Of a DNA stretch of 38,974 bases, positions 2,405 through 35,923 are shown piece by piece; position 1 is the first letter of the stretch; every line of letters starts with the position of its first letter. A program made the position numbers and the translations under genes. This stretch comes from Phycisphaerae bacterium. Lineage in GTDB: Bacteria > Planctomycetota > Phycisphaerae > Sedimentisphaerales > Anaerohalosphaeraceae. The notes below the pieces were generated by a model that had not been told where the DNA came from, ran no database searches, and worked only from the letters and a program-made list of their open reading frames with translations. The stretch covers positions 1 through 38,974 of the forward strand of contig JAAYVQ010000072.1 in assembly GCA_012517095.1 (NCBI GenBank). The letters run 5' to 3'.

Positions 2405-2764
2405 TTATGCCGTAATGCTTTTCCAGCTTTGATTGAGGGTTTCGAGAATTCGAATCACATCCTGAATCAAATCCGGATCGTTCTTGATGGTGGCCTGTGT
2501 CAGGTGGCGATTCATGAAATTATACAGGGACCGGAGATTGGATGCGATTTCACCGCCGTTTTCCATATCCAGCACCGTGTTCAATTCAAGGATAATATCC
2601 TGGGCTTTCCGGATATTCCGACCCTTGGCTTGAAAGTCATTGGCCTGGAGGTTGACCACGGCCTGGCGGAGAAACTTGATCGCCCCGTCGTATAACAGAA
2701 CGATCAATCGGCCGCGGTTTTGCGTCGTGACGGCCGTTTGTTGATAGAGGTTTGCGACATTCAT
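2405..2764 (-). CDS. fliS: Flagellar secretion chaperone FliS (copy 1)
   Basis: 119 aa, typical FliS pattern (NRGRLIVLLYDGAIKFLRQA, LYNFMNRHLTQA); directly downstream of a flagellin gene. Confidence 0.92.
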   Translation of the reverse strand: MNVANLYQQTAVTTQNRGRLIVLLYDGAIKFLRQAVVNLQANDFQAKGRNIRKAQDIILELNTVLDMENGGEIASNLRSLYNFMNRHLTQATIKNDPDLIQDVIRILETLNQSWKSITA

Positions 2765-2865
2765 AAGGTTCTTCCTGAACCTGGGTCCTTGGTTGAGGAT
2801 CCTTCCTCATCCGGGTCGTCCATTTTCGTTTCCCGGAGGGAATGAGCCGAAAGAGAGAGAGGATC

Positions 2866-2896
2866 GGGGGATGACCGCAGAATACGGTCATCCCCC
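2866..2896 (-). promoter_or_regulatory. Hairpin in flagellin 1 - fliS 1 intergenic region
   Basis: GGGGGATGACCG-CAGAATA-CGGTCATCCCCC, 12-bp perfect stem, no clean U-tract on the transcribed strand. Confidence 0.75.
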
Positions 2897-2946
2897 GCGG
2901 AATTTACAATCCGTTAGGCACGGACGCTACGGCCTTGTTGAGCGTA

Positions 2947-3762
2947 TTATCCCAACAGTCTCAAAGCCATCTGCGGCATACCATTGGCCTGGGACAGCAT
3001 GGCCACACCGGCCTGTGACAGCACCTGGTTACGAGTCAACAGGGCCATTTCGGTTGCAACATCCACATCCGAAATACGAGACTCGGACGCCATCATATTT
3101 TCGGCCGAAATGTTGAGCACCGAATAGGTGGCCTGGAGACGGTTCATCATGTAACCCATGCTCGCCCGGGCACTATCCTTGAGCGAAATTGCATCGCCGA
3201 CCAGCCCCAGCGCCGTCTGGGCGTTGGCTGATGTGGTCAAGGAGGTGGAAGCGATACCCAGGGCAGATGCGGTCACATTCACCGAGTTAACGGTGATGCT
3301 GGACCCGACACCAAAGTGAATCGTCGCAGCATTCGAGGTGCTGGCGCTATCCAGCATATGAATGCTGTTGAACTTGGTGTCGCCGGAAATACGGGTGATT
3401 TCCGACATCAGTTGCTGATACTCGTTGTTCATAATGGAACGCTGGCCCGTCGAATACGAACCCGTCGAGGCCTGTTCCGCCAGTTCCTTCATACGAACCA
3501 GCAACTGGTCAATGGTGGACATGGCACCTTCCATCGTCTGCAGCATGCTGATACCGTCTGAAGCGTTTCGGGCGCCCTGTCGGAGCACCGCGATGTCGGC
3601 CCGCATCAATTCGCGAACCGCCAAGCCCGCCGCGTCGTCCTTGGCACTGTTGATTCTCAGGCCCGACGACAGCCGCTCGATCGACTGGGACAACGAGTCA
3701 TAGCTCAATCCCAAGTGCCGTGCGGCATTTTCCGCCATAAGGTTGTTCTTGATTACTAACAT
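2947..3762 (-). CDS. Flagellin (copy 1, short D0-D1 type, 271 aa)
   Basis: Conserved flagellin N-terminus (SIERLSSGLRINSAKDDAAGLAVRELMRADI) and C-terminus (SRISDVDVATEMALLTRNQVLSQAGVAMLSQANGMPQMALRLL). Confidence 0.96.
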   Translation of the reverse strand: MLVIKNNLMAENAARHLGLSYDSLSQSIERLSSGLRINSAKDDAAGLAVRELMRADIAVLRQGARNASDGISMLQTMEGAMSTIDQLLVRMKELAEQASTGSYSTGQRSIMNNEYQQLMSEITRISGDTKFNSIHMLDSASTSNAATIHFGVGSSITVNSVNVTASALGIASTSLTTSANAQTALGLVGDAISLKDSARASMGYMMNRLQATYSVLNISAENMMASESRISDVDVATEMALLTRNQVLSQAGVAMLSQANGMPQMALRLLG

Positions 3763-3872
3763 TTTCCTAACTCCTTAACCAATGGTCAATTGCCCCTGTC
3801 AGGACCTTTTCCCTGATTCCCGATACACTGCCGTAGCGAAGCGGGACAGCTATTCCCCGCTACTACCTGGAT

Positions 3873-3899
3873 ATATCGCAGGATTTAGGGGTTTCTAAA
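3873..3899 (-). promoter_or_regulatory. Weak candidate sigma-28 promoter for flagellin 1
   Basis: Minus strand TTTAGAAA-N11-TGCGATAT; same spacing and similar leader length as the stronger flagellin 2 element, but a degenerate match. Confidence 0.35.
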
Positions 3900-4126
3900 G
3901 GAGTGAAAATAGGCAATATGGCGGCTTTCACCGAAGGACCGATAGTGTTGGAACTTCTCGGATTGAAAGGGGGAACTTTGAATGGAAAGATTTTTCACAA
4001 AATGGAGAAATTTTTTTCCGGCGCGCGACAAAAAATCCTGAACTCCTCGGATACCAACCGAAGGACTCGATCCTTCATCGCCTCCCCTGATCTTGAAACC
4101 AAATGAATTGTGATTCCGTTATGGGA

Positions 4127-4489
4127 CTATGCGGCCACGATCGCTTTCCATCCGCTCAACAATTCATTCAAGATCGAAATGGCCTGGCGGAGCCCCTGAG
4201 GATTGTTTTGAACACTGGAACGATTCAGGTGCAAATTCAAGAAATTATACAAGGCGCGAAGATTCTGAGCCAGCGGCCCTCCGGCTTCCATATTCAAGAC
4301 GGTATTTAACTCGAAGAGGATATCCTGAGCACGCAAGATATAGTGATTTTTCCGGGATAAATCCCGGACTTCCATGGCCGCCAAAGCTTGTCGAAGAAAT
4401 CGGATCGCCCCTTCATACAAGAGGATAATCAGGCGTCCGCGGTTTTGCGTTGTAACGACCTGTTCTTCATATTGAGCGATCGCGTTCAT
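4127..4489 (-). CDS. fliS: Flagellar secretion chaperone FliS (copy 2)
   Basis: 120 aa, NRGRLIILLYEGAIRFLRQA and LYNFLNLHLNRSS; paralogous to 2405-2764. Confidence 0.92.
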   Translation of the reverse strand: MNAIAQYEEQVVTTQNRGRLIILLYEGAIRFLRQALAAMEVRDLSRKNHYILRAQDILFELNTVLNMEAGGPLAQNLRALYNFLNLHLNRSSVQNNPQGLRQAISILNELLSGWKAIVAA

Positions 4490-4540
4490 GAGATCCTCCC
4501 GGAATCGTATGGTCGATTCGCCGTCTTCCGGTTACGGCTC

Positions 4541-4571
4541 GGGTGACTGCCCCACAGCGGGGCAGTCACCC
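4541..4571 (-). promoter_or_regulatory. Hairpin in flagellin 2 - fliS 2 intergenic region
   Basis: GGGTGACTGCCCC-ACAGC-GGGGCAGTCACCC, 13-bp perfect stem, no U-tract on the minus strand. Confidence 0.78.
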
Positions 4572-4595
4572 TTTCAGATGGTAAGAAGCTTGGAA

Positions 4596-5414
4596 TTAGA
4601 CCCGCAACAGATTCAGGGCCATTTGTGGCATACTGTTGGCCTGACCCAACATGGCGATACCGGCCTGAGCCAACACCTGGTTTCGCGTCAGCTTGGCCAT
4701 TTCCGTCGCCACATCGACATCGGAAATTCGGGATTCGGATGCCATCAGGTTTTCGGCCTGGATGTTCAACACATCGGTGGTGCTCAACAACCGGTTCATC
4801 ATATATCCGAAGCTGGCCCGTGCGCTGTCTTTGGCTTCGATCGCCGAGGTGACCAGATTCAAGGCCGCAATCGCGTTACTTCCATCGGCCCCATTAATCG
4901 CCGCCGAACCCAGACCCAGAGCCGAGGTCGTTACATCGACCGAGCTGATAATGATCTGAGAACCCACGCCAAAATGAATGGTATTGGTCCCGGTGGCGCT
5001 GTTGAGCATGTTGATACTGTTAAAGGTGGTGGTGGTCGCGATACGGTCCACTTCCGCCGCCATCTGTTGGAATTCATTATTCATGATGTCGCGCTGTTTG
5101 GAGGAGTAGGACCCGGTCGCGGCCTGTTCGGCCAGTTCCTTCATGCGGACCAGAAGGTTATCGATCGACGCCATCGCTCCTTCCATTGTCTGCAAGAGAC
5201 TGACGCCGTCCTGGGCGTTTCGGGCCCCCTGCCGGAGCACGGCCACTTCCGCTCGCATCAATTCGCGAACCGCCAAACCGGCCGCGTCATCCTTGGCGCT
5301 GTTGATCCGCAGACCGGAAGACAACCGTTCAACCGACTGGGCCAAGGCGTCATAACTTCGGCCCAGGTGCCGTGCCGCATTGTCCGCCATAATGTTGTTT
5401 TTAATTGCTAACAT
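4596..5414 (-). CDS. Flagellin (copy 2, 272 aa)
   Basis: Conserved flagellin termini (VERLSSGLRINSAKDDAAGLAVRELMRAE; SRISDVDVATEMAKLTRNQVLAQAGIAMLGQANSMPQMALNLL). Confidence 0.96.
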   Translation of the reverse strand: MLAIKNNIMADNAARHLGRSYDALAQSVERLSSGLRINSAKDDAAGLAVRELMRAEVAVLRQGARNAQDGVSLLQTMEGAMASIDNLLVRMKELAEQAATGSYSSKQRDIMNNEFQQMAAEVDRIATTTTFNSINMLNSATGTNTIHFGVGSQIIISSVDVTTSALGLGSAAINGADGSNAIAALNLVTSAIEAKDSARASFGYMMNRLLSTTDVLNIQAENLMASESRISDVDVATEMAKLTRNQVLAQAGIAMLGQANSMPQMALNLLRV

Positions 5415-5888: not shown

Positions 5889-6068
5889 ATGGCGAATATG
5901 TCAGAACCGCAGAAACTGTGCAAGAACTGTACGCATTTTGATGCCAAGCTGCAGGAATGTCATCGATATGCTCCACGACCCGTCACGACAACGGACCAAA
6001 AGAACATCCGTTGGCCCATAGTCCAACCCATCAGTTGGTGTTCAGAATACCAAGTCCGAACGGCGTAA
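5889..6068 (+). CDS. Small four-cysteine putative metal-binding protein (59 aa, or 56 aa from ATG 5898)
   Basis: Read directly: MANMSEPQKLCKNCTHFDAKLQECHRYAPRPVTTTDQKNIRWPIVQPISWCSEYQVRTA*; CxxC...C...C pattern; AAGGAA upstream of the second ATG. Absent from the supplied ORF track, whose shortest entries are 60 aa. Confidence 0.65.
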   Translation: MANMSEPQKLCKNCTHFDAKLQECHRYAPRPVTTTDQKNIRWPIVQPISWCSEYQVRTA

Positions 6069-6132: not shown

Positions 6133-7473
6133 TTAAACCAGCGGGGCAGGTTCGGCAATCCGCCCGGCCGAAGTGGTTTGACCCCCCAGATTCAACAGGG
6201 CGTGAAAAATATCGAATACGGTAACGATTCCGAGAACACGGCCGTTTTCATCCACCACCGGCATACACCTTCCCCCGTGTTCCATCATGACATGCATCAC
6301 GGCTCCGACGGAGGCGTCCGGGCGAATGGTCCTGACGGGCCTGTTCATGACCCACCGGGCCTTGATTTGCAGCGTGGCGATATCCATCGGGGTTCGCCAT
6401 TTTGAAAAGATCGTCTGCAAATACGGGCTTAGCGCGCCCCGAACATCCGACCGGGAAATAATCCCGTCGAGTTTGCCATTTTTCCCGACGAGAATATACC
6501 CGCTGTCGTGTCGCTGCATTTTGTTGATGATGTCTTCAACGGTCTCCTCATCCGTCACCCAGACGACATCCGAACGCATAACCTGCTGGGCCGTTAGCGA
6601 ACAACTCGCCAATCCCCCGCCCACTCCCCCACTCTGCGAACTCAGAGCCATCGCGGCAGCCATTTTCTGGATCGCATCGCTGACCGGGCCCGATGGAGAC
6701 GGAGAACCCGACGGAGCAACGGGAGCCGCGGTCACCGGTTCCGGCTGAGGGGGTGCTGGAGGAGGAGATCCGTCGGCCGAGACGGCCGGATTCGCCGACG
6801 CCGCAGGCACTGGGGAAGATACCGGAGCCGCCGATTGAGCATCCGCAGGTGCGGATGCGGCTTCGGGAGGAGCGGCGGCCACTTGCGCCTGCTTGTCATA
6901 AATAGAAGCCGGAAAGGTCACAGCCATATAAAAGGGCTCGTAGGATCCGACTTTGACCGCGAACGAGATGATGTCCAATTCGGCTTCCGGGGCCACGCGG
7001 ATCTTGCTTTCCGAACTCGACCAGGGATTCCCGACGAAGGTGCCGCTTTGAACATGGTGACCATGACCCGGATAATTTTCACGAAACACCCGGTCGAACG
7101 CCCCCACGAGAAGGTTTCCCACCTCTCCGAGCGCATCGCCGATATCCGCGGCCTCTTTTTCCCCCCCCGATTTTCGATTGATATGAATGATTTGCTCCGG
7201 CTGCATGACAAAGGTGCCGGCCAGCGTAAAAAGTCCCTCGCGATCGATTATGACCTGATACTCTCCGTCCATGATCCCTTCGGATCGGACCATGATCACC
7301 GCGCAGAGCTTTTTGTAGCGATTCTTAAGATTGGTAATCGTTCCGCTTTCGATATCCGATTGCTGCGACTCCACCTCGGTATCGAACATTGTGGAAATAT
7401 CCTCGGCAAAGGCCTTCATGGCCTCCACCGTCAGGTCGTTGGTGGCGGACCGAAGTTCGGCAATTTCGGCCAT
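6133..7473 (-). CDS. CheC/CheX-like N-terminal domain fused to C-terminal CBS-domain pair
   Basis: N-terminal ADIGDALGEVGNLLVGAFDRVF resembles the CheC/CheX/FliY E..N motif; Ala/Pro-rich linker; two CBS-like units (VMRSDVVWVTDEETVEDIINKMQRHDSGYILVGKNGKLDGIISRSDVRGAL and VMNRPVRTIRPDASVGAVMHVMMEHGGRCMPVVDENGRVLGIVTVFDIF). Confidence 0.75.
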   Translation of the reverse strand: MAEIAELRSATNDLTVEAMKAFAEDISTMFDTEVESQQSDIESGTITNLKNRYKKLCAVIMVRSEGIMDGEYQVIIDREGLFTLAGTFVMQPEQIIHINRKSGGEKEAADIGDALGEVGNLLVGAFDRVFRENYPGHGHHVQSGTFVGNPWSSSESKIRVAPEAELDIISFAVKVGSYEPFYMAVTFPASIYDKQAQVAAAPPEAASAPADAQSAAPVSSPVPAASANPAVSADGSPPPAPPQPEPVTAAPVAPSGSPSPSGPVSDAIQKMAAAMALSSQSGGVGGGLASCSLTAQQVMRSDVVWVTDEETVEDIINKMQRHDSGYILVGKNGKLDGIISRSDVRGALSPYLQTIFSKWRTPMDIATLQIKARWVMNRPVRTIRPDASVGAVMHVMMEHGGRCMPVVDENGRVLGIVTVFDIFHALLNLGGQTTSAGRIAEPAPLV

Positions 7474-7495: not shown

Positions 7496-7978
7496 TCAGT
7501 TGGCTTGCGTGGTAAACCGGTACAAGAGTATTATGTGAGCGACATCTTCATCCACATGCACCATCTTCGAGACTTCGAAGGACTGCTCGCCGAGACTATT
7601 GATCAGTTCCTTCCCCTTGACAACCGTCGGGATGGATACCTGGATGTCTCCCACCGAATCCGCCAGTCGCGCCTTGACGGCTCCAAGGACCATGTTGGCC
7701 ACTTCGCCCATGGCATCGACCACTTCCTCTTCCGAAAGGGTCTGGCCGGCGTCGGATCCCAACATGTTTCGAGCAATGGCCTGAGCGCAATTCAGGTTGC
7801 ATCGAACCCCCAGGCAGCCCTCGACGGCCCCCTTAAAGGTGATGGAGGACAAGAGGGCTTCTCCCTCGATGGCTTCATACATCTCGTTGCACTCTTCCAC
7901 CGACATGAACATCATCGTCTCAAAGACTTCCGCCATGCCGGAAAGCAGCGCTTCGCTAAATATTTCCTGCCCGACCAT
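7496..7978 (-). CDS. cheX: CheX-type chemotaxis phosphatase
   Basis: CheX/CheC signature EEEVVDAMGEVANMVLGAVKARLAD; start placed at ATG 7978 with GAAGG upstream (track start 8029 is TTG). Confidence 0.82.
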   Translation of the reverse strand: MVGQEIFSEALLSGMAEVFETMMFMSVEECNEMYEAIEGEALLSSITFKGAVEGCLGVRCNLNCAQAIARNMLGSDAGQTLSEEEVVDAMGEVANMVLGAVKARLADSVGDIQVSIPTVVKGKELINSLGEQSFEVSKMVHVDEDVAHIILLYRFTTQAN

Positions 7979-8029
7979 GAATACACCTTCCATTACAAGT
8001 CTATATCGAATGGATTCCCGACCCGACAA

Positions 8030-8407
8030 TCACTGCAAATACGGGGCCAATTCCTTTTGAATGGTTTCGGGCGTGAACGGCTTGGTGACATACCCGTCCG
8101 CCCCGTCGGCTTTCACGCTGGCAATCAAGCCCTCAGCGCTTTCCGTTGAGATCATGACAATCTTGGTGTTCTTGTTGGCCTCATTGGTGCGGGCTTTTTT
8201 GACGAAATCCAATCCTCCCATCCCGGGCATATTGATATCGCACAAAATGATATCCACCGGTTTGCCTTCGATTTTCTGCAAGGCCTCATTTCCATCTCCG
8301 GCCTCGAGAATTTCATCCGCCACCGGCAACCCGGCTTTACGGATTGTCCGCGTAATGATCTTCCGCATCGTGGCGGAATCATCGACTACCAACATCGTCT
8401 TTGACAT
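8030..8407 (-). CDS. cheY: Chemotaxis response regulator CheY
   Basis: Single receiver domain MSKTMLVVDDSATMRKIITRTIRKAG...DIILCDINMPGMGGLDFVKKAR...VMISTES...GADGYVTKPFTPETIQKEL. Confidence 0.93.
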   Translation of the reverse strand: MSKTMLVVDDSATMRKIITRTIRKAGLPVADEILEAGDGNEALQKIEGKPVDIILCDINMPGMGGLDFVKKARTNEANKNTKIVMISTESAEGLIASVKADGADGYVTKPFTPETIQKELAPYLQ

Positions 8408-29955: not shown

Positions 29956-32043
29956 TTACGACGACATCGAAGTCACTGAGCTCATCTGTCGCTGAAGTTG
30001 GGAAAGCAATGTTTCCAATCGGGCGTACTGCGCGACCAATCGTTCCCGTTCTTTCTCCAGCCGCTCCTCTTCTTCCTCGATCCGATCGTTCTGGTTCTTG
30101 ATGGCCTGGTCGATCGATTTGGTCGTGATCGTCAAGCTGCCGTCCACCGAATCGAGATTGGTATTGAGGACATCGTACGCCGCCCCGGCGAATCCCTGCT
30201 TGACGGAAATCGTGGCCGTCAGCGGAGTCCCCGAGGTCTGGCTGACATCGACGGTGAACTGTAAGCTGTTTTCCGCGTACAGGGGCGTACCGTAACTGTT
30301 GAAGGTTGAATTTCCCGTCACCGTGTTCCCGCTGAATGTGGCATCGCGCCAGGTGGTTTCGCCGACTTCCCGGATCTGGGCGGAGGTGATCGCGGTCCCG
30401 TTGCCATAGACGCGGACTTCGTATTGACTGGCGGTGGTATATTTGTTGGCGGAATAAAACTTGATCGCGTCGCTGGTGGAATCGCCCGTCTTGTCGGTGC
30501 CGATCAGGTCCAGCACGCCGTTGTAATCATCCACGATGGCCTCGTCCAGGGCCTTTTCATCCAGTTCGAGCATACCTTCTGCGTTCAGCGTCAGACCGAT
30601 GTCCGAGGGGCTGGTGAAACTGTCCCGGGATCCGAAACCTTTTGTGGCCGAGTTGAACGGTTCCTTCATCTGGCTCCAGATCGTCAGGACATTGTATTCC
30701 GTGGATAAGATGCCGCGGGTCTTGCCGTCGGCATCAAACGCGGTCTTGTCTTTGATGTAGAGAACGGCGGCATTGTAGGTGGTGACGAGCGTATCGATTT
30801 TCTCTTTCAGGGCCTCGGTGTCGCGCGTGAGGTTGACTTCAATGTTGTCGTAGCCGGTTCCGTTGTAGGAAGTGTCGTGCAAATGCAAAGTGACGCCGGA
30901 GATCACATCGTCGATGGTGTTGGAACTTCGGCTGATCCAGTCGTCGGCGCCGGTCGGAAAGTCGTCCACCTTGATCAAGCTGTCCTGAGCGCTGCGGGTT
31001 TCGGTAAAGGTCGCCGGTGCGAAGGCGGCGACGCTGGCGGAAACCGTGCCCCCTTCGTCTCCGTCCAGAATGAAAGTCGGCAGGGCCAGCGATGCCGTTG
31101 AACCCGTGCCGGGCACAAAGCTCATCGCCAAGTCCAAGCTGCTGGCGCCGGAGGTTTTGTCCGTCAGACGAATCACGCCGTCCTCGTAAGTGGCGACGGC
31201 GGTCCGTACGCCGGCGGTTTCGAAGGCCTCGTTGATCTGCGTCAATACATCATCGATCGTGGTGTAATGGGTGACATCGAAGTAGTAGTCCACGGCCGTA
31301 TTGTCATGACGGGTCCCCGTGATATGGATCTGGTCGGCGGTCGAGCCGCTTTCCAATTCGCCGGTGAATCCGTCCAGGTCTTCCAGCTTGGTATCCACAT
31401 CCGCGGTTTCCCCGTTTTCCAGAAGCTCCGTGTTGGCCTTCCGGACTTCCGTGTTGGTGGCATTGACGGTGATCTGGTAATCGGAGCCGCTGTCTTTGCC
31501 GTTGAGGACCAGGTGATAGGCGTTGCCAGTCCCGCTGTCGTATTTGAGAATGCTGGCCGTCACGCCGGGGTTGTCGGTATCGTTGTTGATCAGGCCGACC
31601 ATGTCCTCCAGCGTGGTCTCCTCGGTGGTCTGGATGATCAGTTCCTTGTTGTTATACGAGAAAATGAAATTCCCCGCGCCGACATAGGCGGTGGAATTGG
31701 AGATGCCGCTGTGGACCCATCGTTCGGCGGTCGCCAGTTGCTTGACCTTGACAGAGTGGTTTCCTTCGTACGCGTCGGACGACGCTTCGGCCGAGATGAT
31801 GTCCGAATCGCTGGTTACGGCCTTGAATGACTTCAGGACGCTGCTGTTGTTGAGAGCCGACATTGCGGTCTTCACCGAAGTCAGTTTGCTTTGCAGCTCC
31901 GTATAGGCCTCTTTCTTGGTCTCGCTGACCGTCAGATTGGATTTCATCAGATTGAGCTTACGGCTGTTGACTTCCATGAGCTGCTCGATGATCTTGGCCG
32001 TATCGAGGCCGGTTGACAAACCTGGGAAACTGAGTGTGCCCAT
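29956..32043 (-). CDS. fliD: Flagellar filament cap protein FliD
   Basis: MGTLSFPGLSTGLDTAKIIEQLMEVNSRKLNLMKSNLTVSETKKEAYTELQSKL; C-terminal NQNDRIEEEEERLEKERERLVAQYARLETLLSQLQRQMSSVTSM; start ATG 32043. Confidence 0.93.
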   Translation of the reverse strand: MGTLSFPGLSTGLDTAKIIEQLMEVNSRKLNLMKSNLTVSETKKEAYTELQSKLTSVKTAMSALNNSSVLKSFKAVTSDSDIISAEASSDAYEGNHSVKVKQLATAERWVHSGISNSTAYVGAGNFIFSYNNKELIIQTTEETTLEDMVGLINNDTDNPGVTASILKYDSGTGNAYHLVLNGKDSGSDYQITVNATNTEVRKANTELLENGETADVDTKLEDLDGFTGELESGSTADQIHITGTRHDNTAVDYYFDVTHYTTIDDVLTQINEAFETAGVRTAVATYEDGVIRLTDKTSGASSLDLAMSFVPGTGSTASLALPTFILDGDEGGTVSASVAAFAPATFTETRSAQDSLIKVDDFPTGADDWISRSSNTIDDVISGVTLHLHDTSYNGTGYDNIEVNLTRDTEALKEKIDTLVTTYNAAVLYIKDKTAFDADGKTRGILSTEYNVLTIWSQMKEPFNSATKGFGSRDSFTSPSDIGLTLNAEGMLELDEKALDEAIVDDYNGVLDLIGTDKTGDSTSDAIKFYSANKYTTASQYEVRVYGNGTAITSAQIREVGETTWRDATFSGNTVTGNSTFNSYGTPLYAENSLQFTVDVSQTSGTPLTATISVKQGFAGAAYDVLNTNLDSVDGSLTITTKSIDQAIKNQNDRIEEEEERLEKERERLVAQYARLETLLSQLQRQMSSVTSMSS

Positions 32044-32053
32044 CGGGAACTCC

Positions 32054-34165
32054 TTATGTCGTCGAAACGATAGACGGATTTGCGGTTTGGTTGGGAGAAA
32101 CGGATGGCTCAAGAGATGCCCATTGTCCCAATTGCGTCAGCAACTGCTCGGCATCCGGATTCGGCCGGCGATTCAACTCGGCCCTGCAGGCCGCTATCGC
32201 CTGATCGTTCCGACCGAGTTGCACAAACGCCACGGCCCGGGCATAGTCCAGGCCGGACATCTCGAAACCTCCGCTGCGGGTTTCATCCATATAGACCAGC
32301 GCCTCATCGGGTCTTCCGGATCGGAGACGATCCACGGCGCACCGAAACAATTCCAGCGGTCGCTGATTTCCGGTCATGCTCCAGACCGATTGCGATAACC
32401 GGCCGGTTTTTGTCAGAGATTCAATCATCAGGGTACGATAGCGATCCCCCCGTTGCCGGAACGGTTCGCTGAATCGGCCCGCGTTGGTTTGCGCGTGGGA
32501 ATAAAAGGTCATCATCAGGTATTCGTGAAACCGGCATGTCCGCTCGGCCGGATCGGAAACTTGCGCCAGTTGCGGATACAGAATCTCGGCCGGATAGCGC
32601 GAGATCATCTCCTCCAGCGCCGCGGCGGTGATCTCGTTGCGCTGCTGATATTTCCGCGAAAGCCCCCCCGAGCCGACGCGATAATAATACGGCATGCTGC
32701 CGGCCACCCGGCTGAAGCGCATTTGTCCGGCGTTGCGGCAGAGAAAATCGAAATCGGCCGCCGTCTCGACCGGACGATACAGGCCCGTCCGCTCATACAG
32801 GGATCGCCGAACAAGACTTCCCGGTTCCGGAATAACGCTTTTGCCCAGCGTAAACAGAACGGCAATCAGGACCCGGCTGTCGCGAATCTCTTCGTACCGC
32901 CACACCACGCCCGTCGGCCGACCGGCATCATCCACCAGCGTCAGCCCGGCCGGATAATAATAGTCGGCGCCGGGGTTTTGCTCGGCATGTGCGACCATCG
33001 CCTGAATATATCCCGGAGCGATCGTGTCGTCGGAGTCCACCACCAGCAGGTAGTGTCCCTTCGCCTCGCCAATGGCCCGGTTTCGGGCGGCGGCGTAGTT
33101 GGCGTGGTCCTGATGGATAGATCGGATTCGCGGATCGCGGTATTCGGCAACGATCGCCGCCGTGTCGTCCGTGCTGCCGTCATCGACGATGAGAAGCTCG
33201 AACGGTTCATAATCCTGCGCGAGAATCGACTCGATCGCGCGGCGGATGTGTCCGGCGGCATTGTAGGCGGCCATCTCGACGGTCACCAAAGGCCGATGCG
33301 GGGGCGAGGGTTTCGTTTCTGTGCCGCCGCGAAAGACCAGTTCGGCTTCCTGATGGCAGGCCTGAGGAACAAACCCGGAATACAGCGTCACATCGATTGA
33401 ATGGCCCTGATCGAACAGATCGGAAAGTCGCTGGACGGAATAGGCCGGATCGGCGCCGTTTCGATTGGGACAGACGGTCTGCACGAGATTGACGGGATTG
33501 CAGAAGGCGACGGATTGTTCAAAGCACAGCAAGCCGGGCCGGGCCGCGGCGTAGAGTTGCGCGTTGGCGGCCATCAGGCCTTCCAGCGTATTGGGGTTGG
33601 TGAAGGGCAATTGCTCCAGCAGCGCCAGAAGTTCAGCCGTTCGGTAGAGACTGCTGGAGACTTCCAGCGGATAGCCAAAATCGTGGGGAGCTCCGGGCCA
33701 GGAAAATTTCACAATTTCCGGCGCGGCCGGAATAAAAGCGGGTTGGGCAGGCGGAACATCCCGCATGTAGCAGCGATGGATGTTGCGGCCCAGACGCAGG
33801 GAAAACCCGATTGCGTCCGGATGCGCCGCCAGCGCCGCGCAAATATCTCCGATCGAAAAGTCCCGCACAAACAGATTGTCATCGACCGCAAACAGAACCA
33901 TCTCCGACGGGCGAATCAGCGACAGAACCTGCGACCGAAACTCCGTCTCTTCGACGAACGCCACATCCGGATATCGTGTGCGCAACCGCCGATACTGATC
34001 GCCAACGCGCGGTGACGATGCCCGAAACAGAACCGCCAGCCGCATCGCCTGCGGATCGCGCAGATGCAGCCGCAGCGAATCCAGGACTGCCTGCAGTTGC
34101 ATCGCCCGGTCTTTGCTGAAGACAAGACCCAGAATATTCGATTGTGTCGGTTGACTCGCGTTCAT
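32054..34165 (-). CDS. Large glycosyltransferase: GT-like N-terminal domain, GT2 domain, TPR-like tail
   Basis: GT2 core VTVEMAAYNAAGHIRRAIESILAQDYEPFELLIVDDGSTDDTAAIVAEYRDPRIRSIHQDHANYAAARNRAIGEAKGHYLLVVDSDD; N-terminal VFSKDRAMQLQAVLDSL...LFAVDDNLFVRDF. Confidence 0.85.
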   Translation of the reverse strand: MNASQPTQSNILGLVFSKDRAMQLQAVLDSLRLHLRDPQAMRLAVLFRASSPRVGDQYRRLRTRYPDVAFVEETEFRSQVLSLIRPSEMVLFAVDDNLFVRDFSIGDICAALAAHPDAIGFSLRLGRNIHRCYMRDVPPAQPAFIPAAPEIVKFSWPGAPHDFGYPLEVSSSLYRTAELLALLEQLPFTNPNTLEGLMAANAQLYAAARPGLLCFEQSVAFCNPVNLVQTVCPNRNGADPAYSVQRLSDLFDQGHSIDVTLYSGFVPQACHQEAELVFRGGTETKPSPPHRPLVTVEMAAYNAAGHIRRAIESILAQDYEPFELLIVDDGSTDDTAAIVAEYRDPRIRSIHQDHANYAAARNRAIGEAKGHYLLVVDSDDTIAPGYIQAMVAHAEQNPGADYYYPAGLTLVDDAGRPTGVVWRYEEIRDSRVLIAVLFTLGKSVIPEPGSLVRRSLYERTGLYRPVETAADFDFLCRNAGQMRFSRVAGSMPYYYRVGSGGLSRKYQQRNEITAAALEEMISRYPAEILYPQLAQVSDPAERTCRFHEYLMMTFYSHAQTNAGRFSEPFRQRGDRYRTLMIESLTKTGRLSQSVWSMTGNQRPLELFRCAVDRLRSGRPDEALVYMDETRSGGFEMSGLDYARAVAFVQLGRNDQAIAACRAELNRRPNPDAEQLLTQLGQWASLEPSVSPNQTANPSIVSTT

Positions 34166-34168
34166 TCT

Positions 34169-35923
34169 CTATCGTACGCCGCCGGAAACCAGCGGTTCAC
34201 TCGCCTTTGTCTTGGGTACCCCGGAAGCATTGACCTCGAATTCACTCGTGCACATCCTGTTATCGGCTAAAAGGGTTTGCAATTCACGCATCCAAATGTC
34301 CCAAGTCGGCCGCTCTTTCGGCGAAACCATACTCTCGGCGAGCAACTGGCCGGCGGCCGAAAACTGCGTATCAACGGTGCGCTCTTCCGTTTTATGGGCC
34401 GTGACAATCACATTCGAAAGGAAGGGCTCCTGCGACCAGGATTTTTCCTCTTTGTGCAATCCCCCGAATCCCAGCGCCGACAGCGTCCGCTGGAACCGTT
34501 CGGCAAACCAGTGATCGACATGATACGCCCATTTTGCGGCCTGATCGCCGGCCAGATGGCGAACCACGGCCATCTTGGTTTTCCAGGCCGCATTGGACAA
34601 CAGCGTCCGGGCGCTGCCGATCAGGTCGGGCGTTTCGATGCACAGTACGCCGCCGACTCTGAGCCATTGGTGCCAGCGAATCAACAAGGCAAGAGCGGTA
34701 ACGCGGTTGAAATGCTCGAAGACATGGTGCAGACGAATCTCATCGACCGTCCTATCGGGAAACCGCAGCGTCGTGATATCGGCATGAATGTCGGCGCCGA
34801 GCTTGGGAATCGTGGTGTGCTCGCTGGGCGGGTAATCAATGTTGACATAGCCGTCGAACTTCCACTGCCCGCAGCCCAGGTGCAGACGCAGGGGCTTTCC
34901 CGGCGACCACAAGCCCGCCCGCTGAATGCGGGACAACAGTTCGCCATCCGGCCATACCGCCGGTTTCGATGGAGCCACCGGTAAGGGTGGGCCGCAACGA
35001 TCGATCCATTTGCGGATCAGCGGATGATCACAACCACCGGAGACGGCCCTCATCAAACTGTCGCGCGCGGCGTTCCCTTGGCGATATTGAATTTGCGCCA
35101 GCCCCTTCCACAGATGCTCAATGGAGGCATCCGGGGTTCGCATGAACGCGGGAATCTGAAGGATATCGGCCATCTCATCGGACCAGAGAAGCCGGCGCGG
35201 GGTTGGTTCTTCTGTCGAAACGAAATGCCGCCACTTGTCGAGGTATCGGGCGATATCTTCGGCGCTGGTCTGGGCGTTGGTATTTTTCTGGTTGTCGAGG
35301 ACATTGTTGTGGAGAACAAAACAGCCCGGCAGCGGAACCAATTGACGGCCGGACTGATAGAGCTTGTAGCACAGATCGCCGTCGGCACAATAGAACAGGT
35401 AGGATTCGTCGATGCCGCCGACGGCGGAGAACGCGTCCATCCGAATCAGGCCATAATTCATCAGGAGTTTGTGGCCGTAAGTAAAGTCGATACCGAACTT
35501 GTCCCAGTCAGGCCGCGTGTGAAGATTCTTGTAGAAGAAAATGCCTCCCGCCACGGAGGATGCCAGGGAGTCCAGATAGCGTACGGCCTGGGTCATGCTG
35601 TCGGGGCCGAAAACGATATCGTCGCTGGCATACATGGCATAGCGGCCTCGGGCTCGGGCGAATCCAAAATTGTACAACTGCGGCCAGGAATGCCGACCGG
35701 GGCCAAAGTGTTCGAATTCGTTGAAGACCTGCGTGATGTTGTGCTTTCGAAGAACCGACCGCGTTTGGTCCGTCGAACCGCCTTCGACAACAATGACCTC
35801 CAGCGAAACCCCGCGGGCGGCCGGCTTGAGACTGGTAAGCATCGCATCCAAAAGTGAGTCGCGATTTTTCGTGCATACGACAATGCTGACATCGACACCC
35901 GTTGGCGTAAAGTTTGAGTTCAT
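34169..35923 (-). CDS. GT2 glycosyltransferase fused to class I SAM methyltransferase-like domain
   Basis: GT2: VSIVVCTKNRDSLLDAMLTSLKPAARGVSLEVIVVEGGSTDQT...YAMYASDDIVFG; MTase: LRLHLGCGQWKFDGYVNIDYPP...DEIRLHHVFEHFNRVTALALLIRWHQWLRVGGVLCIETPDL. Confidence 0.87.
   Translation of the reverse strand: MNSNFTPTGVDVSIVVCTKNRDSLLDAMLTSLKPAARGVSLEVIVVEGGSTDQTRSVLRKHNITQVFNEFEHFGPGRHSWPQLYNFGFARARGRYAMYASDDIVFGPDSMTQAVRYLDSLASSVAGGIFFYKNLHTRPDWDKFGIDFTYGHKLLMNYGLIRMDAFSAVGGIDESYLFYCADGDLCYKLYQSGRQLVPLPGCFVLHNNVLDNQKNTNAQTSAEDIARYLDKWRHFVSTEEPTPRRLLWSDEMADILQIPAFMRTPDASIEHLWKGLAQIQYRQGNAARDSLMRAVSGGCDHPLIRKWIDRCGPPLPVAPSKPAVWPDGELLSRIQRAGLWSPGKPLRLHLGCGQWKFDGYVNIDYPPSEHTTIPKLGADIHADITTLRFPDRTVDEIRLHHVFEHFNRVTALALLIRWHQWLRVGGVLCIETPDLIGSARTLLSNAAWKTKMAVVRHLAGDQAAKWAYHVDHWFAERFQRTLSALGFGGLHKEEKSWSQEPFLSNVIVTAHKTEERTVDTQFSAAGQLLAESMVSPKERPTWDIWMRELQTLLADNRMCTSEFEVNASGVPKTKASEPLVSGGVR

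Follow-up and report, generated by a model that had tools for sequence, protein, structure and literature searches.

A conserved fusion of a CheX-like domain to a CBS pair in Planctomycetota, a candidate regulated CheY-P phosphatase

In the flagellar and chemotaxis region of a Phycisphaerae bacterium, a gene was found that joins a CheX-like domain to a pair of CBS repeats, and this fusion is real and conserved. Its N-terminal domain is a relative of CheX and CheC that has the same fold and the same catalytic pair, while not being a member of the CheX or CheC families as Pfam defines them. It is tentatively proposed, with a confidence somewhat short of even, that the protein acts as a second CheX-like CheY-P phosphatase of the flagellar chemotaxis operon, in which the CBS pair would serve as an adenine-nucleotide control module.

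The fusion gene, its surroundings and its relatives

The features of the fusion and of the nearest che genes are collected in Table 1; the window, the whole stretch of DNA that was analysed, comprises 38,974 nucleotides.

Table 1. Coordinates in the window of the fusion gene, its parts and the neighbouring chemotaxis genes.
Feature	Position	Strand	Basis
Whole fusion gene (CheX-like domain, linker and CBS pair)	6133..7473	minus	single open frame, ATG start, 446 codons/446 aa
N-terminal CheC/CheX/FliY-fold domain, residues 1-195	6889..7473	minus	AlphaFold2 pLDDT 94.6; PDB fold matches; 27-sequence alignment
Catalytic motif E117-V-G-N120, in helix 112-133	7114..7125	minus	E in 58/59, N in 58/59 of the loci
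Ala/Pro-rich linker, residues 196-285	6619..6888	minus	predicted disordered, pLDDT mostly <50
CBS pair (Bateman module), residues 293-430	6184..6597	minus	PF00571 E=1e-28, 99.8 bits, two stretches
CBS1 ribose-phosphate motif G337-I-I-S-R-S-D343	6445..6465	minus	fits G-h-h-S/T-x-x-D/N
Conserved inter-repeat segment, residues 349-378	6340..6429	minus	27-sequence alignment
CBS2 ribose-phosphate motif G415-I-V-T-V-F-D421	6211..6231	minus	fits G-h-h-S/T-x-x-D/N
cheX (single-domain CheX with its own E..N)	7496..8029	minus	PF13690 E=9.7e-18
cheY (stand-alone receiver)	8030..8407	minus	PF00072 E=1.5e-25; NCBIfam CheY model best match
cheA (cut by contig end)	3..2162	minus	H-kinase_dim PF02895 E=7.2e-13 at 708-890; open-ended frame

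The initial annotation had placed the gene directly downstream of cheX and cheY, and both were found immediately upstream of it on the same strand. Downstream of the fusion gene, two flagellin/fliS pairs at 2405-5414 separate it from cheA; in many relatives cheA follows directly, and where the flagellin insert is missing the order cheA-cheR-cheD-...-cheB is found immediately after the fusion. The remaining window is a flagellar region with fliK, a sigma factor, fliF, fliG, fliH, fliI, fliJ, fliP, fliR, flhB, part of flhA, and fliD. At 29956-35923 on the minus strand, fliD stands beside two glycosyltransferase genes, one of which also has a methyltransferase match, and this group is possibly involved in flagellin glycosylation. 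Past the fusion gene, on the opposite strand (5898-6068, plus), lies a 56-aa frame with a C-x-x-C and two further Cys (MSEPQKLCKNCTHF...ECHRY...WCSEY), which may encode a zinc-binding mini-protein.

A scan of the genomes of 84,980 species with the N-domain alignment, whose patterns were drawn from a Planctomycetota clade so that distant relatives elsewhere are possible, recovered 58 loci in other genomes (59 counting the window), whereas a scan of genome contigs with the single N-domain sequence gave no match. All 58 belonged to metagenome-assembled genomes (MAGs) of Planctomycetota, mostly Phycisphaerae/Sedimentisphaerales, or to an unclassified MAG. Both parts lie within one frame at 56 of the 59 loci, window included; the exceptions are L114, with its halves in separate frames, L113, whose CBS part is interrupted by a shift of frame (a locus partly counted), and L123, which is cut by a contig end. 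The order cheY-cheX-fusion was observed in 50/59, several of the others starting too near a contig end. Among 59 related genomes, CheA was found in 25/31 with the fusion and in 8/28 without it (Fisher p 7e-5, a value overstated by kinship), and flagellar SpoA genes in 29/31 and 16/28, respectively (p 0.0016, likewise overstated by kinship).

Fold and active site of the N-terminal domain

The assignment of the N-domain could not be read from Pfam scores. The full protein matched the CheX model (PF13690) with E=0.27 and 11.8 bits and the N-domain alone with 13.3 bits, both under the curated cut-off of 27 bits, and the best E among 27 relatives was 1e-5, 15/27 of them matching at E<=1. The score against CheC (PF04509) was 11.5 bits, under a cut-off of 22; the FliM middle-domain model (PF02154) found no match in the fusion protein, and the Pfam scan found no SpoA (FliMN_C) domain in it. 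Global hhalign of the N-domain with CheX gave no match, and local hhalign with the neighbouring CheX family gave E=3.2e-4 at an HH probability of 39%, with the D-A-x-x-E-x-x-N motifs aligned, a result that was counted as support only. Since a search of PDB sequences with the N-domain profile returned a single weak match, to FliY (E=0.024), the fold call depends on the structure model.

This model was obtained with AlphaFold2 from the alignment of 27 relatives, with a mean pLDDT of 94.6. Foldseek returned 34 PDB matches at E<=0.001, every one of them FliY, FliM, CheC or CheX, led by Thermotoga maritima FliY (E=1.7e-10, TM 0.75); the first match outside these families had E=0.03. The kinship with CheC/CheX/FliY suggested by the initial annotation, on which that interpretation hinged, was thus borne out by the modelled fold and by the presence of E117-V-G-N120. 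CheC, CheX and FliY insert the acid and the Asn of such an E-x-x-N pair into the receiver active site (PMC3035606). Across five distant lineages and seven CBS-type members, this E, this N and one Pro were the sole invariant columns. Within the first helix, residues 2-30, the window protein contains no E-x-x-N, and none is conserved there in the family, which leaves one active site, as in CheX. The earlier designation CheC/CheX is therefore narrowed to a domain with a single active site like CheX, whose overall shape, as modelled, is nearest to FliY, FliM and CheC.

Each of these families differs from the fusion in some respect. CheX (T. maritima 1squ/1xko; Borrelia burgdorferi CheX-CheY 3hzh) shares the fold class, a gene adjoining cheY, and one E-x-x-N site, carried by the long helix in the second half; unlike CheX, the N-domain falls under the Pfam CheX cut-off, is longer (195 aa), has a long first helix, carries a CBS pair and adjoins a genuine cheX. 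T. maritima FliY (4hyn), the best overall structural match, has the E-x-x-N pair in common with the fusion, but the latter has no SpoA domain and hence is not FliY. The catalytic pair is also common to CheC (1xkr); CheC has two E-x-x-N sites, whereas the fusion has only one. The FliM middle domain has the same fold (TM about 0.66-0.72), but FliM carries SpoA, which the fusion does not, and it lacks the phosphatase motif and is not a phosphatase.

The catalytic residues were lost in two members, L116 (E to Q) and L115 (N to T). Neither has cheX or cheY beside the fusion, no CheX was found in either genome (both incomplete MAGs), and the L116 MAG is also without CheA. L080 lacks cheX/cheY and CheA too, yet it retains E..N. 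The loss of a catalytic residue thus accompanied the loss of cheX/cheY in 2/3 cases (Fisher 0.002, from few events); this fits a role on CheY-P, with two cases in favour and L080 contrary. The E-to-Q copy in L116 adjoins a gene for an Hpt + CBS protein (L116:4037-4924).

The CBS pair and its origin

The two CBS repeats named in the initial annotation were recognised by PF00571, and the long Ala/Pro linker was likewise recovered, with predicted disorder. In relatives the linker spans 41-353 aa (median 128) and is rich in Ala, Glu and Pro. In the full-length model (pTM 0.49) the CBS pair was modelled confidently, and the mutual placement of the domains is not given by the model. By sequence, the CBS pair matched CBS proteins in the PDB, the best being 4esy_A (E=3.3e-15).

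The motif G-h-h-S/T-x-x-D/N is the CBS ribose-phosphate motif, which is tied to adenosine phosphates (PMC11172384), and both repeats of the window protein fit it. In the relatives, the S/T of CBS1 was found in 57/57 and its D/N in 52/57 (5/57 lacking it); in CBS2, T/S occurred in 56/57, and the last position was D in 44/57 and E in 7/57. The fusion resembles CBS-pyrophosphatases and other CBS-regulated enzymes in having a regulatory CBS pair with these motifs on an enzyme domain (PMC11172384), and differs from them in that its enzyme part is a chemotaxis-type phosphatase domain and that its inter-repeat segment is distinctive and conserved. The family consensus of this segment is SPYLxxxFAKWRRPxDDATLQIKxKWxMSR, in which S349, Y351, F356, D364, A366 and W374 are invariant among 27 sequences; its very conserved stretch is FAKWRRPxDDATLQIKxKWxMSRPV. 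To our knowledge, this is not a feature of standard CBS pairs. The same module, by profile, was observed on long coiled-coil or low-complexity proteins in two other loci (L063:2271-5063 and L064:6059-7453).

A broader profile detected the N-domain in 62/392 Planctomycetota genomes; a few weak matches were FliM/FliY-type proteins, L235 having SpoA. E-x-x-N was retained in nearly all members. The relatives without CBS share E-x-x-N and, in several genomes, the same slot between cheY-cheX and cheA, but they end in a true or degenerate receiver or in nothing. The group f52 has the arrangement cheY-cheX-[N-domain + true receiver]-cheA, with receivers matching PF00072 at up to E=1.8e-27; members of f89 and f54 end in a degenerate or unassigned receiver-like domain; and f40 has the N-domain on its own, behind cheY-cheX in several genomes. 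Over these loci (L164, L165, L167, L168, L198-L237), a second CheX-like protein was thus observed phylum-wide behind cheY-cheX, whose C-terminus may be a receiver, a degenerate receiver, nothing or, in Phycisphaerae, a CBS pair. A different arrangement was noticed at L125:12927-13766, where a protein with the receiver first and CheX second is encoded by a further CheX-type gene of the same che operon, along with two cheD-type genes.

The 29 N-domains that carry a CBS pair all grouped in one clade, with 100/100 support, in an unrooted tree of 69. The N-domain is thus an old second CheX-like protein of Planctomycetota, and the simplest account of the CBS pair is that it was joined once, in the place held by a receiver in other lineages. 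As a receiver, nothing or a CBS pair may fill the same slot, the CBS pair appears to be a control module that was exchanged into this position. This Planctomycetota-wide protein is apparently undescribed. No description of CheX or CheC with CBS was found in the open-licence literature, which is weak evidence as an absence; the possibility that the architecture is widely known with another function found nothing in its favour there, and the titles and abstracts of that literature offered nothing relevant on CheX in Planctomycetota.

Proposed function and competing explanations

In the proposed mechanism, the N-domain would work in the manner of CheX: it would dock on phosphorylated CheY and insert E117 and N120, and water would then attack the phospho-aspartate. 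For its part, the CBS pair would bind an adenine nucleotide, most likely ATP, ADP or AMP and possibly SAM, and the nucleotide-bound pair would raise or lower the phosphatase activity via dimerisation across the flexible linker. In this way, the metabolic state of the cell would influence swimming bias at a point beyond the receptors and CheA; in the f52-type relatives, phosphate received from CheA would let the receiver play the corresponding part. The steps differ in strength. We infer that the N-domain probably has CheY-P phosphatase activity, and adenine-nucleotide binding by the CBS pair appears rather more probable than its absence. Allosteric coupling of the two is likely if both hold, and a link of CheY-P dephosphorylation to the energy state, as supposed at the outset, is plausible on circumstantial support. 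The more specific version, in which cytosolic adenine nucleotides switch the phosphatase allosterically through the CBS pair and bypass receptors and CheA, while the receiver version of other lineages would be controlled by phosphorylation, so that the type of signal was swapped, is possible though on balance doubtful. The dedicated cheX next door suggests a pair of one constitutive and one regulated phosphatase; the same neighbour could also make a second phosphatase redundant or indicate another job for the fusion. In favour of a regulated phosphatase are the fold matches, the retained E and N, the cheY-cheX-fusion order, the co-occurrence with CheA and flagellar SpoA genes, the ribose-phosphate motifs in both repeats and the receiver that replaces the CBS pair in other lineages. 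Against it stand the scores of the N-domain, under the CheX and CheC cut-offs, its overall shape, nearer to FliY/FliM than to CheX, the variable length and disorder of the long linker, and the 5/57 relatives without D/N in CBS1.

CBS pairs also bind c-di-AMP or metal ions, or bind nothing, or merely dimerise. It is therefore conceivable, if rather unlikely, that the phosphatase domain works as proposed while the CBS pair is no energy sensor and instead serves in dimerisation or localisation of the protein, or responds to another ligand such as c-di-AMP, a metal ion or SAM. Besides this diversity of ligands, such an explanation draws on the closest named NCBIfam CBS families, which include the c-di-AMP-binding CbpB as well as CBS-pyrophosphatases, on the unusual segment 349-378, which rather than the nucleotide motifs alone is the best-conserved part of the CBS half, and on the occurrence of related CBS modules on coiled-coil proteins that have no enzyme domain. 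It is opposed by the ribose-phosphate motif, linked to adenosine phosphates (PMC11172384), which is kept in both repeats, the S/T of CBS1 being nearly without exception.

It would be less expected still that the N-domain binds CheY-P, CheD or CheX without significant hydrolysis, acting as an adaptor, buffering the phosphate signal, or setting adaptation as a CheC-like partner of CheD. CheC is a known partner of CheD, cheD genes occur in the operon of the relatives, PDB 2f9z (CheC as CheD partner) is among the fold matches, the shape of the N-domain is nearer to CheC/FliY than to CheX, and phosphatase activity could come from the separate CheX. A pure adaptor, though, need not retain the acid-Asn pair required for catalysis, and no other feature of the family is as well conserved as this pair.

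A role as a structural subunit of the flagellar switch (C-ring) of the FliY/FliM type is very improbable. The best PDB matches are FliY and FliM middle domains, and PF02154 has no match in the genome at E<=1; but the fusion lacks a SpoA domain, is placed with cheY-cheX rather than with fliM-fliN, and a divergent FliM-type gene occurs together with a FliN-type gene elsewhere in the genome (G000:C292). As the SpoA-bearing, 412-residue frame of that locus adjoins the FliN-size gene, the fusion was rejected as a FliM substitute. SpoA-bearing frames in the relatives match FliM weakly; in most of these Phycisphaerae, FliM appears too divergent for the Pfam model, with a SpoA-bearing frame of 320-412 residues beside FliN. 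Finally, that there is no fusion at all but a mis-assembly or read-through between two genes, for which the split loci L113 and L114 and the truncated L123 might be cited, is refuted by the one-frame loci and the fully supported clade and has a negligible probability.

Discussions of how chemotaxis senses energy usually centre on the receptors. A phosphatase that carries its own nucleotide sensor would instead bring this input in at the far end of the pathway, at CheY-P itself, and, if the fusion works as proposed, the energy state (ATP/AMP) could act directly on CheY, the signal to the motor. The family also offers a natural comparison, in which the N-domain is found with a CBS pair, a receiver or nothing in the same slot behind cheY-cheX, and the role of the control module is testable by swapping.
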